Origin: Clostridia bacterium
Lineage (GTDB): Bacteria > Bacillota > Clostridia > TANB77 > CAG-508
NCBI GenBank assembly: GCA_017429505.1
Contig: JAFROW010000001.1
Location: 1-64,000 of the forward strand
DNA: 64,000 nucleotides
Direction: 5' to 3'
The notes below the pieces were generated by a model. The model was not told the origin of the DNA. It saw nothing but the letters and a program-made list of their open reading frames with translations, and ran no database searches. The first letter of the stretch is position 1; the number at the start of each line of letters is the position of its first letter. Below are positions 24,533 through 37,742 of the stretch, one piece after another. Made by a program: the position numbers and the translations under genes.

Positions 24533-24720
24533 TAAAAAACCTCCCTTTCTTTTAATCCGCATCAAAAGAAAAAGGAGAGTTTTTGTTTATAGCTACGCAA
24601 AAATAGCTTATTAAAATTTTCCTATTGTTCTTATTAGCGGAAGGCGGAAATAAATAAGCGAATTACTTCTTGCCTTAGTAGCAAATTCCCGTCTACTAAG
24701 TCTTAACTATTTATTTCCTA
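24533..24720 (-). promoter_or_regulatory. Structured leader of the ATP-grasp gene, ribosome site sequestered
   Basis: Three pairings on the minus strand. An outer stem GGAAATAAATA/TATTTATTTCC (24646-24656 with 24708-24718) encloses CTTAGTAG/CTACTAAG (24674-24681 with 24693-24700). AGCTA..TAGCT lies at 24592-24609. Last, 24564-24579 pairs with 24540-24553, hiding the Shine-Dalgarno of the ATP-grasp gene. The layout is that of a translational riboswitch or a repeat-derived leader. I do not recognise a known class. Confidence 0.5.
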
Positions 24721-24765
24721 CTCTAATAATTATATTTTTTCCTCCGTCCAAAAAATCCACTTCAA

Positions 24766-31351: not shown

Positions 31352-31735
31352 TCAAAACTTCACTTTAAAATCTTCATATTTATCACATAAACTTAACGTA
31401 CTCACATTACTAATTTTTTCTTTTGGAATTAAATACATTGATTTTGTTTCAGTTAAAATAAATATTAAATCTATATTTGTTTCTATAATAGTTTTATATG
31501 TTTTTCCTCTAGTTCCTCCACAACTTTTTAAAGCAACTTGATAATTTCCACCTTTTCCTATACAGCCTGTTGACTTCACTTGTACTCTTTGTAATTTATT
31601 TTCTTTTTCAACTATTAGGTCATAATCCTGTGTATCATTTAAAGGAATAGAAACCACATATCCATTAGTTGAAAAATATGCAATTGCCATTCCTAAGCCA
31701 CTATTGCCTTTCTCTTTATTTGTTAAAAAGTTCAT
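31352..31735 (-). CDS. PD-(D/E)XK endonuclease, group I intron-associated type
   Basis: 127 aa. The core reads TQDYDLIVEKENKLQRVQVKST: catalytic Asp39, then Gln52-x-Lys54, the (D)..QxK variant known from the cyanobacterial tRNA-intron homing nuclease family (I-Ssp6803I, PF11645). GNYQVALKSCGGTRGKTY and IDLIFILTETKSMYLIPKEKI are typical second-half segments. AAGGGG lies before ATG. It ends nowhere near another gene on its side and begins 72 bases beyond the 3' end of the intron-bearing tRNA-Tyr, on the same strand. A link to that intron is my inference; freestanding relatives also exist elsewhere. Confidence 0.72.
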   Translation of the reverse strand: MNFLTNKEKGNSGLGMAIAYFSTNGYVVSIPLNDTQDYDLIVEKENKLQRVQVKSTGCIGKGGNYQVALKSCGGTRGKTYKTIIETNIDLIFILTETKSMYLIPKEKISNVSTLSLCDKYEDFKVKF

Positions 31736-31806
31736 ATTTCCCCTTCTTTTAAAGAATTTTTGTTCGTGTTATGATATAAAAATAAAATACAAGTTTCCTT
31801 GTATTT

Positions 31807-32112
31807 TGGTGGGCAGGGTTGGATTCGAACCAACGTACGCTCTCGCGGCCAGATTTCTTACTACTATAGTTTTCACTACCATTTATAAATGTTTGTAGTC
31901 TGGACTTTCTCTTTATCTCTAATGAGATACCAGGTATAAAGTCTCTACACTCGGAATTACTTCCTAGCTCGGGATTATCATCAGCCTAGCTGTTAAGACT
32001 TCCCCGAATTAGCCTAGTTATCATCACATAATCACTTATATGAGCTGCAATTTAAGGTCTTTAAAACCTAAAGACTACAGTCTGGTGCCATTAACCACTC
32101 GACCACCTGCCC
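31807..32112 (-). tRNA. tRNA-Tyr(GUA) interrupted by a group I intron
   Basis: Exons are 32112-32077 and 31856-31807. Acceptor stem GGGCAGG/CCTGCCC, discriminator A and encoded CCA are visible. After removal of the 220-nt insert the anticodon arm is CCAGA-CTGTAAA-TCTGG with anticodon GTA. The long variable arm CGC-GAGA-GCG makes it a class II tRNA, right for bacterial Tyr. T arm is GTTGG-TTCGAAT-CCAAC. The insertion lies between anticodon positions 35 and 36. Confidence 0.93.
31857..32076 (-). mobile_element. Group I intron in the tRNA-Tyr anticodon
   Basis: Starts after an exon U and ends in G, the rule for group I introns. The exon end CUGU can pair with GCAG (32045-32048) as P1 with a U.G at the splice site; GTCTTT/AAAGAC forms an extension. 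Core elements are in order: P AATTCGGGGAAG (31999-32010), Q AATCCCGAGC (31967-31976) pairing CGGG/CCCG as P4, R GTGTAGAGACTTTATAC (31934-31950) and S AAAGTCCAGACT (31897-31908), pairing GACTTT/AAAGTC as P7. 220 nt, no internal gene. Confidence 0.9.
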
Positions 32113-32244
32113 GTGTCCTACAGACAAAATCTATTATAAAGCCAAAATGTAAATTTGTCAACCCCTTTTCGAAAATTTTTTAAAATAAAAATTTCTAGTT
32201 AATACATAACCCTATAAAAGCAACATTGTAAATAAATACAATAT

Positions 32245-32305
32245 CTAAGAAAAGTGGCTTAGCCAATGCGCAAATTTCAAAACAATCGCGCTAATATAGG
32301 AAACT
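32245..32305 (+). repeat. Degenerate copy of the three-hairpin repeat
   Basis: CTAAGAAAAGTGGCTTAGCCA keeps the first hairpin (TGGC-TTA-GCCA) and is followed by GCGC..GCGC. The rest differs from the full copies. Confidence 0.4.
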
Positions 32306-32322
32306 TTATCTTTTTACATATA

Positions 32323-32435
32323 ATAAGAAAAGTGACTTCGTCACATGTGCAGGTTGCTTTGCAACCGCACGAATCAAAGAAACTTAACCTTGTTGCTCCG
32401 GAAAAATCTGACGATTTTTCCTATACAATAAAAAA
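32323..32435 (+). repeat. Three-hairpin repeat, intergenic copy
   Basis: Hairpins GTGAC-TTC-GTCAC, GGTTGC-TTT-GCAACC and GGAAAAATC-TGAC-GATTTTTCC, joined by AATCAAAGAAACTTAAC. The same 113-base sequence occurs inverted, in-frame, inside the gene at 52572-54185. An open frame of 62 codons over this copy is a by-product of the repeat. Confidence 0.75.
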
Positions 32436-35640: not shown

Positions 35641-35856
35641 AGCCTAGAATCTTTTTATAGACTCTAGGCTACTGAATGACTTAGAGCTTCGAAAGTTTTC
35701 TAAGTACCGTTCATTATTATTATATTCATAGAGCTATGTTTCCATAGCTCCTTTAATGTTGGTTATTTGGTAGGAGTCGCCATCCCTACATCTCTTTTGA
35801 CCTCTACGGTGCGTGGTTGCAACATTTTACCACCTCAAATAACCTACTTATATTGT
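35641..35856 (-). ncRNA. Structured small RNA, about 215 nt (possibly raiA-type)
   Basis: It has its own promoter and terminator. The 5' domain is closed by GGTTATTTG/CAAATAACC (about 35762-35846) and contains GGTGG/CCACC-like and GTAGG/CCTAC stems; next come GAGCTATG-GAAA-CATAGCTC and ACTTAGA/TCTAAGT. It ends in AGCCTAGAGTCT/AGATTCTAGGCT followed by TTTTATGTT. The size and layout suit a raiA-class RNA of Firmicutes, but I cannot confirm the class; it does not match 6S, ZTP or THF consensus features that I know. Confidence 0.7.
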
Positions 35857-36443: not shown

Positions 36444-37742
36444 TTAATTATATGTTGCATAATTTCCTATTAAATCTTTTACATCATCCCATAGCGTTTC
36501 TGATGATAGTACAACAACTGGTCTTAGTGAAGCAGAAGGATCAGGTGGAGGAAATTGACCTGCCGAGTTAACATCCTCACCACCATTTTCAGTAGAACTA
36601 CATAAGTTTCCATAATTACAACCTACTCCACTCCCTGAATTAAAATTTGTATACATAAATTGAGCACTATACCCATTAAATTCAACTGAACGCGAGGCTA
36701 CCCAATAAGTACCATTATTAGCCATTATATATAACATATTATCTATTTTATTTGAATTTGTTGGTTGAATATCTATCTCATTCCAATTATTTTTTGATGA
36801 ACTATATTTAAATACTTGACCTTCTTTTCGGTAACTATATGCATCATTTTTATGTTTCCATGTTGTTCCTGATGTAGTTGGATTTATCCATGTTTTATTT
36901 GTTTCATCTGGATAATAGTAATCTACCTTTTTTTCTTGAAAATTAAATGTTGAGCCAAATGTAAATTCATCGAATGTTTCTGGTACAGTAAATCCTACTG
37001 CATTATTTATATCATCTAATGTTATACTCCTTACTTCTTTTATTGTTGCGGACTTTGTTCCTAACGTTCCTTGTGTTCCTACTAAAGTCGAACAAGATGT
37101 CCTTACAGTATTTAAATAGTCTACCCATCCTGATAATGAACCCTCAACCGTCAATGAGCTTACGGGATTTTTCGTTGTAATTATTATATCATTTTTTCCT
37201 TGTTCATTTACTTGTTTTCCAAGTATTATCCATCCGCCTGCTGTTTGTATATTACTACTATTATTTGAAGATGTATAGTTTATTGTTTTTCCTATCATAC
37301 TATCTTCATATTTTTCGCCAAAAGTTTCTATTACATTGTTATTTGCAAATTTACCTTTAAACATTTCGGATAAATTTATTTTATATCTTTCATCTAATGT
37401 TGTTAATTCAATATCATTTGTAGAAGATACTTCATCAGGTATCGATTCTGTTGCTGTTGCTATAAAGTATTTATCTAATATTGTAGCTAATTGTTCCTTT
37501 GTTATATTAGCTCCCTTATTTTCTGTCTGCTGTCCTAATATATCAATTTTAGTTTGTTCTATTATGCCTTGTTTTTCTGAATTAGTTTTAGCATCTGTTG
37601 CTTTTTGTAAAATAGAGTTGTCTCCAGATAGCATCGAAATACTAATTCCAGCTAATATCAAAAGGACAATTATAGTTATAACAAGTGCTATCAAAGTTAT
37701 ACCATTACTGGTTTTTAGAGATTTTTTTATACTTTTTTTCAT
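36444..37742 (-). CDS. Prepilin-like surface protein
   Basis: 432 aa. A 14-residue basic leader ends in Gly, followed by ITLIALVITIIVLLILAGIS, a type IV prepilin N-terminus without the usual Glu at +5. A coiled region follows. The large C-terminal domain includes TAGGWIILGK and YWVASRSVEFN and ends near SASLRPVVVLSSETLW, a layout shared by many secreted proteins of gut Clostridia. Probably processed by prepilin peptidase and displayed on the surface; partner pilus genes are not in this window. AAAGGAAAA precedes ATG. Confidence 0.7.
   Translation of the reverse strand: MKKSIKKSLKTSNGITLIALVITIIVLLILAGISISMLSGDNSILQKATDAKTNSEKQGIIEQTKIDILGQQTENKGANITKEQLATILDKYFIATATESIPDEVSSTNDIELTTLDERYKINLSEMFKGKFANNNVIETFGEKYEDSMIGKTINYTSSNNSSNIQTAGGWIILGKQVNEQGKNDIIITTKNPVSSLTVEGSLSGWVDYLNTVRTSCSTLVGTQGTLGTKSATIKEVRSITLDDINNAVGFTVPETFDEFTFGSTFNFQEKKVDYYYPDETNKTWINPTTSGTTWKHKNDAYSYRKEGQVFKYSSSKNNWNEIDIQPTNSNKIDNMLYIMANNGTYWVASRSVEFNGYSAQFMYTNFNSGSGVGCNYGNLCSSTENGGEDVNSAGQFPPPDPSASLRPVVVLSSETLWDDVKDLIGNYATYN

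Follow-up and report, generated by a model that had tools for sequence, protein, structure and literature searches.

Probable collaborative homing at a bacterial tRNA gene: a group I intron within the tRNA-Tyr anticodon and a neighbouring free-standing endonuclease gene

Evaluating a 64,000-nt stretch of Clostridia bacterium DNA (the window), we found that a gene for class II tRNA-Tyr(GUA), on the minus strand at 32112-31807, carries in its anticodon a group I intron of 220 nt, inserted between bases 35 and 36, and that the next open reading frame on the same strand, which was absent from the preliminary description of this intron, begins 71 nt downstream of the tRNA and belongs to the PD-(D/E)XK endonucleases. 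We interpret the pair as a probable case of collaborative homing at a bacterial tRNA gene, in which an intron that itself encodes no protein would share one target with a free-standing homing endonuclease. Under this interpretation, the insert would fold in the pre-tRNA as a group I ribozyme, cut after U35 (at the U.G pair of P1) and ligate U35 to A36, and splicing would thereby restore the only tRNA-Tyr found in the genome. The most likely target of the downstream enzyme would be the anticodon region of tRNA-Tyr genes that lack the intron, such that repair from an intron-bearing copy would spread intron and endonuclease together; the intron would destroy this target and so protect a host that carries it.

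Joining the exons yields a class II tRNA-Tyr of 86 nt that has the anticodon GUA and an encoded CCA. ARAGORN run without introns reported zero tRNAs in the 64,000-nt window, and with introns allowed (31501-32400) it recovered tRNA-Tyr(gta) with a 220-nt intron, bearing out the coordinates and the perfect exon joining given in the preliminary description. The further claim made there, of a group I intron between bases 35 and 36, agreed with every detail that could be tested, as the insert follows U, ends in G, offers a P1 with U.G and carries the P, Q, R and S elements in order; on these features it looks like a self-splicing intron. None of 100 shuffled sequences folds as stably as the whole split gene (z -3.6). 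A protein-spliced (BHB) intron was considered and ruled out by the bacterial host and the group I core. Split genes of this kind escape both ARAGORN without introns and the Rfam tRNA model here, and annotation may list such genomes as lacking the tRNA. Elsewhere in the window, all on the minus strand, are a THF riboswitch (24633-24727) and a skipping-rope RNA (35762-35843), both above the Rfam cut-off, and a 432-aa ORF (36444-37742) whose start resembles that of a pilin (ITLIALVITIIVLLILAGI) and whose C-terminal part is long.

Table 1. Coordinates of the split tRNA-Tyr gene, its intron elements and the adjoining endonuclease gene.
Feature	Position in window	Strand	Remarks
tRNA-Tyr(GUA) exon 1, ends with U35	32112-32077	-	36 nt; sequence and ARAGORN
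Group I intron, terminal omega-G	32076-31857	-	220 nt; RF00028, model R1, covariation
Internal guide UUGCAG: GCAG pairs exon CUGU (U.G at 5' splice site); UU can pair exon 2 AA (P10)	32045-32050	-	
P2 hairpin, GUGA (GNRA) tetraloop	32025-32042	-	
P element, P4 5' strand	32002-32013	-	covarying P4 pairs
Q element, P4 3' strand and start of P6	31965-31975	-	
R element and P7 5' strand	31937-31950	-	invariant across 21 aligned relatives
S element, P7 3' strand	31902-31913	-	
P9.2 hairpin, GAAA tetraloop	31867-31878	-	3 of 4 pairs change on both sides
tRNA-Tyr exon 2 from A36; variable arm, T arm, encoded CCA	31856-31807	-	50 nt; sequence and ARAGORN
Likely terminator, hairpin then U-run immediately 3' of tRNA	31806-31785	-	read from sequence
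Free-standing PD-(D/E)XK endonuclease gene, proposed homing partner	31735-31352	-	127 aa; ribosome-site-like AAGAAGGGG before ATG

Among 4227 Rfam families the group I model RF00028 came top (40.0 bits; E 1.1e-8 for 701 nt), a match that the preliminary description had proposed as a check, although it lies below the curated 50 bits and RF00028 is hence absent from the Rfam gathering-threshold list for the window. The two intron paralogues of the same genome score 39 and 24 bits, also under 50, and a more distant member of the same intron tree, in tRNA-Leu (L226), reaches 69.6 bits. When eight loci were scanned jointly, only L226 matched at E 0.001 and L070, L071, L227, L313, L317, L366 and L512 did not; L070 and L071 do match when scanned singly. 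A whole-genome scan with RF00028, whose initial pass was too coarse, returned one weak match elsewhere and missed all three introns of the genome, and we therefore built our own model, R1, which gives 212.7 bits for the window intron, itself among R1's source sequences. The weak match (C10:169231, L072; RF00028 13.8 bits) was dropped; ARAGORN gave no tRNA there.

With P1 and its U.G pair and P3-P9 all located, we evaluated covariation in 21 introns (11 Tyr, 6 Thr, 4 Asn) aligned from the guide to the last G under a hand-drawn structure. Pairing cells amounted to 94.9%, versus 83.6% in shuffled alignments and at most 44% when the structure was slid, and the covariation score was 0.385, versus 0.165 shuffled and at most 0.093 slid, the structure having an advantage over its slid versions in that it was drawn from the same 21 sequences. 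Nineteen pairs change on both sides, giving 121 such cells versus 37.9 in shuffles, and this covariation is located in P3, P4, P6a, P8, P9 and P9.2; in P3, four of six pairs show such two-sided change and stay paired throughout. The number of further pair types was not above the shuffles (426 of 500). Of the two core pairings proposed earlier, P4 is thus backed by covarying pairs; P7, which in group I introns contains the guanosine-binding site, does pair in 21 of 21 introns over five pairs, but all of these are invariant (five of its six pairs), so that P7 carries zero covariation information.

The internal guide tracks the host tRNA, being UUGCAG in most Tyr introns, U(U)AGCAG in Asn introns and UUGCAC in most Thr introns. 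In 64 of 68 Tyr introns the guide GCAG pairs with CUGU, and in the other 4 the script picked another G; these counts are the script's best-scoring picks, with probable wrong picks in 4 of 68 Tyr and 6 of 64 Thr introns, and the typing script demanded a U before the intron and a G at its end, so that those two letters are partly selected. The extra A of the Asn guide faces U36 (Asn exon 2 reads UAAC), and P10 has four pairs in 36 of 39 Asn introns. A GAAA loop in L2 together with the 11-nt receptor, or a close form of it, in P8 occurs in 52 of 64 Thr and 37 of 39 Asn introns, and Tyr introns mostly have other GNRA loops in L2 and the 11-nt P8 receptor in none of 68, such that L2 and P8 vary together across the three groups. 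Tetraloop-receptor contacts between L2 and P8 and between L9 and P5 are known from subgroup IC3, as in Azoarcus.

The genome that contains the window (1.98 Mb, 14 contigs, 96% complete) holds exactly three introns by R1, namely those in tRNA-Tyr, in tRNA-Asn(GUU), where it follows U35 of a gene that adjoins 5S rRNA, and in tRNA-Thr(UGU), where it follows U36; U-G-U precedes all three. Among its 30 intact tRNAs we found no intact tRNA-Tyr, -Asn or -Thr(UGU), and so the second, intact tRNA-Tyr gene that had been named as evidence against an active intron was not found in this 96%-complete genome; since tRNA-Ala and tRNA-Ile are also missing from the list of 30, the assembly does have gaps.

Across genomes, R1 matched at least 101 of 287 sampled genomes of the host order, in 21 of 45 genera (a lower bound under stricter filters), 14 of 391 in the class (8 of them in the host order) and 11 of 398 in the phylum (own genome included), with matches outside the order reaching at most 97.6 bits and including, by host tRNA, one doubtful Gln call. 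Typing by junction splicing and ARAGORN assigned the distinct introns to 59 Tyr, 48 Thr, 34 Asn, 1 Leu, 1 Lys and 1 doubtful Gln host, counts that leave out 30 loci without the core motif, including 16 extra-order R1 matches (L127-L132, L136-L145). In the first typing set the Gln call (L135) looks spurious, L062 is spoilt by an N run, and L231 and L232 gave no result; in the second, 12 of 118 genome and 28 of 77 viral matches stayed untyped, six 'gt' calls were taken as Tyr (L309 lies on the same contig as L192, a Tyr), and the rare labels Ser-aga, Phe, Pro, Ile and 'AT|' Tyr are doubtful or wrong, the Ser-aga label of L313 having been rejected because that intron really lies in tRNA-Tyr. Among 141 introns, ATG ORFs reach at most 59 aa.

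The Tyr intron itself is present in 54 of 287 order genomes (G080 typed by eye), so that the judgement 'rare' in the preliminary description fits the literature searched, which held no report of a group I intron in bacterial tRNA-Tyr, but does not fit the host order, where the intron is common. None of these 54 genomes retains an intact 15-nt tRNA-Tyr anticodon arm, versus 200 of 233 others, with 33 genomes having neither, in a cross-table made from hand-copied lists and with a Fisher test that takes related genomes as independent; for Asn, a weaker control, the intact arm occurs in 0 of 30 intron genomes versus 7 of 15 others. Because 0 of 54 Tyr-intron genomes keep an intact arm, splicing should work in these cells, which suggests that many gut bacteria need a ribozyme to make an essential tRNA. 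A tree of 65 introns unites the order's Tyr introns in one clade (97/99) and its Asn introns in another (100/99), and Thr introns require 3 changes.

Intron-less tRNA-Tyr genes with near-identical exons occur within the genus (G003, G043), and comparison with plsX, found in 28 of the 30 genomes asked, indicates how the intron has moved. Introns of G067 (family f3) and G055 (f1) are 96% identical where plsX is 54% identical, and those of G061 (f5) and G157 (f1) are 91% identical where plsX is 40%; within f1, by comparison, plsX ranges over 68-97% and the intron over 83-98%. The f3 and f5 introns are thus too similar for descent, and by these sequence comparisons the Tyr intron has passed from one host family to another. 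In G061 and G073, both the exons of the tRNA and the tRNA-Met next to it look by eye like intron-less f5 genes, so it seems to be the intron, and not the whole gene, that was transferred, and contamination is unlikely because two f5 genomes of one genus show the transferred intron.

We next consider the adjoining ORF, whose 127-aa product matches PF11645 (PDDEXK_5) at 68.5 bits against a cut-off of 26.1 (E 7.9e-19). Its nearest PDB sequence is 2ost (E 4.5e-4; only residues 7-84 align), for which the PDB gives the molecule name only as 'Putative endonuclease' and which we take to be I-Ssp6803I, the enzyme from the Synechocystis tRNA-fMet intron that cuts the anticodon region. A D and a QVK of the 127-aa protein align with 2ost, and D and Q-x-K are the catalytic residues of PD-(D/E)XK homing endonucleases; across 21 sequences D37, D39 and Q52 are invariant and K54 is present in at least 90%, the enzyme of phage contig L366 having R in Q-x-K where most others have K. 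Homologues lie downstream of the tRNA at 24 of 59 Tyr-intron loci (flank at least 300 nt), 21 of these 24 beginning at 57-77 nt. With a stricter flank of at least 520 nt the counts are 18 of 44 Tyr-intron loci versus 0 of 35 intron-less tRNA-Tyr loci (39 examined, 35 with long enough flank; p 4.5e-6 in a Fisher test that takes related genomes as independent), and none occurs within 2 kb of 46 Thr or 13 Asn loci in named genomes, over flanks of varying length. Among 94 whole genomes (own included) PF11645 occurs in 18, above the cut-off in 16; the match lies beside the Tyr intron in 12 of the 18, as does the only one in our genome, and elsewhere in 6 (five matches in G088 and single ones in G009, G003, G079, G029 and G052). 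The endonuclease is under purifying selection (median dN/dS 0.26 over 184 pairs of 20 stop-free copies), and three copies (L105, L113, L117) are truncated or look decayed.

Two of these genomes gave side observations. In G088 the five PF11645 matches lie on contigs C59, C89 and C119; three of them have in-frame TGA or TAG and two directly adjoin group I intron (R1) matches, so that the bin perhaps includes contigs of phages that use an altered genetic code. In G003, the contig with the intron-less tRNA-Tyr also bears, at a distance of about 5 kb, a stop-containing fragment of the endonuclease family (G003:C18:13901-14101), possibly a relic.

Related enzymes also occur inside introns and in phages. 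Two records (L313, L260), titled Bacilli by their depositors, which is an uncertain guide to the host, carry a 58-59% identical enzyme within an intron of 602 nt that interrupts tRNA-Tyr at the identical position. In L313 the core of this Tyr intron is 95% identical to the intron of the neighbouring tRNA-Thr and groups among Thr introns in the tree; since its core matches Thr introns, the 602-nt intron represents another intron lineage. A 5.6-kb predicted viral contig (L366) has, together with seven other tRNA genes, a tRNA-Tyr gene whose intron measures 182 nt and behind which a 45% identical enzyme is encoded; the L366 intron clusters with those of other phage tRNAs, apart from the order's Tyr introns. 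Relatives of the endonuclease were found in 39 phage records and in none of the plasmid records; in two annotated phage records, SelmaRatti and Wilder, the relative lies within a tRNA cluster with no adjoining annotated intron. A tree of 48 enzymes places those of the order together with L313 and L260 (83/85), apart from eight phage enzymes.

Group I introns with the same core were also seen in other tRNA genes of predicted phage contigs (L354-L429), namely tRNA-Arg(UCU), -Ser(UGA), -Leu(UAA), -Lys, -Asn and -Tyr, and, on viral contig L382, in a tRNA with anticodon CUA, a would-be stop-codon suppressor. A 735-kb phage record (L512) has one in tRNA-Leu(UAA), and in the named strain Ruminococcus albus 8 (L317) an intron of the wider group, 238 nt long, interrupts tRNA-Leu(UAA) after base 34.

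Given these patterns, we weighed other ways in which the intron might have arrived and been kept. An RNA route, by which the excised ribozyme would reverse-splice into UGU-containing anticodon loops, with reverse transcription and recombination to follow and the endonuclease incidental, would account for Tyr, Asn and Thr introns all lying after U-G-U and having the guide core GCA in common, and the 95% identical cores of the neighbouring tRNA-Thr and tRNA-Tyr introns on L313 do indicate that an intron moved between isotypes. Such jumps are rare, however, because the order's Tyr and Asn introns each form one clade, and an intron that reaches the same site in another family is the outcome expected of DNA homing, which leaves this route unlikely as the main explanation. 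We likewise find it improbable that the intron is an ordinary, mostly vertical ORF-less one and the nuclease a separate selfish gene, of the phage tRNA-cluster type, that favours tRNA neighbours. A nuclease is lacking at 35 of 59 Tyr-intron loci, including two of the clearest cases of transfer (G061 and G073), the relatives in SelmaRatti and Wilder sit in tRNA clusters away from annotated introns, and both the single Tyr clade and the correlation of intron with plsX distances within f1 (r 0.27, p 0.016) fit vertical descent; yet a free tRNA neighbour would not lead one to expect a nuclease at 0 of 35 intron-less tRNA-Tyr loci and at none of the Thr and Asn loci, nor a related enzyme inside a tRNA-Tyr intron in the two records titled Bacilli, nor an intron that has been transferred across families. 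A decayed insert or tRNA pseudogene, with tyrosine decoded by an intact copy left out of an assembly that is 96% complete in 14 contigs and also lacks tRNA-Ala and tRNA-Ile, would fit the RF00028 score below cut-off but is very hard to credit given perfect exons, strong covariation and an intact arm that is missing from all 54 Tyr-intron genomes.

Returning to collaborative homing of the intron and its downstream endonuclease, we lean slightly towards a broader reading, in which it operates at an essential tRNA gene of a cellular organism, with its evolutionary steps still visible as intron plus free-standing endonuclease (the order and phage), enzyme captured in an intron (L313 and L260, in a different lineage), intron alone and empty site. 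One enzyme family would then have associated with at least three intron lineages at one anticodon, probably through trade with phages; the intron and enzyme trees are both unrooted, and the direction of change among these states is unproven. How an ORF-less intron gains a homing endonuclease is an old question, and as both arrangements occur here at the same tRNA site, the capture step becomes testable.

Group I introns of bacterial tRNAs have been described, in passages of a review and of the tRNAscan-SE 2.0 paper, from cyanobacteria and alpha- and beta-proteobacteria, with cyanobacterial tRNA-Leu and tRNA-fMet, Azoarcus tRNA-Ile and proteobacterial tRNA-Ile2 as hosts, the tRNAscan-SE 2.0 paper itself describing the tRNA-fMet and tRNA-Ile2 cases (PMC4033280, PMC8450103), and part of a further account reports them in tRNAs of closed genomes, mostly CPR (PMC8172020). 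Within the open-licence PMC literature searched, no title or abstract start reported a group I intron in bacterial tRNA-Tyr, -Asn or -Thr. The known introns resemble ours in being small and ORF-less, in lying in the anticodon loop and in having U.G in P1, omega-G and the core elements; ours differ in occupying tRNA-Tyr, -Asn and -Thr, three per genome, in a Clostridia-type order, and, for Tyr and Asn, in being inserted between anticodon bases 35 and 36. A GNRA loop in L2 and an 11-nt P8 receptor, seen here in the Thr and Asn paralogues, are features of the Azoarcus intron.

For phages, a passage of a 2014 account placed all introns then known in protein genes and noted collaborative homing as observed in two phages, proposing that the free-standing gene moves into the intron later (PMC3984707). 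The predicted viral contigs with tRNA introns go beyond that account, though later papers may have said so, and the state in L313 and L260 would fit its proposed gene-into-intron step. In cyanophage S-PM2, the free-standing gene of F-CphI, an Endo VII-type enzyme reported to be specific for the intron-less gene, adjoins the psbA gene with its group I intron (passages in PMC6083498, PMC3984707). That arrangement shares with ours a free-standing endonuclease gene beside a group I intron gene, whereas there the target is a phage protein gene and the enzyme Endo VII-type, and here the target is a bacterial chromosomal tRNA gene and the enzyme a PD-(D/E)XK endonuclease whose cleavage is predicted. 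Another PD-(D/E)XK homing endonuclease is I-Ssp6803I of the Synechocystis tRNA-fMet intron, with which the title of a 2001 paper by Bonocora and Shub agrees. Our candidate has in common with I-Ssp6803I that it is a PD-(D/E)XK enzyme, and differs from it in being encoded outside the intron, behind tRNA-Tyr.
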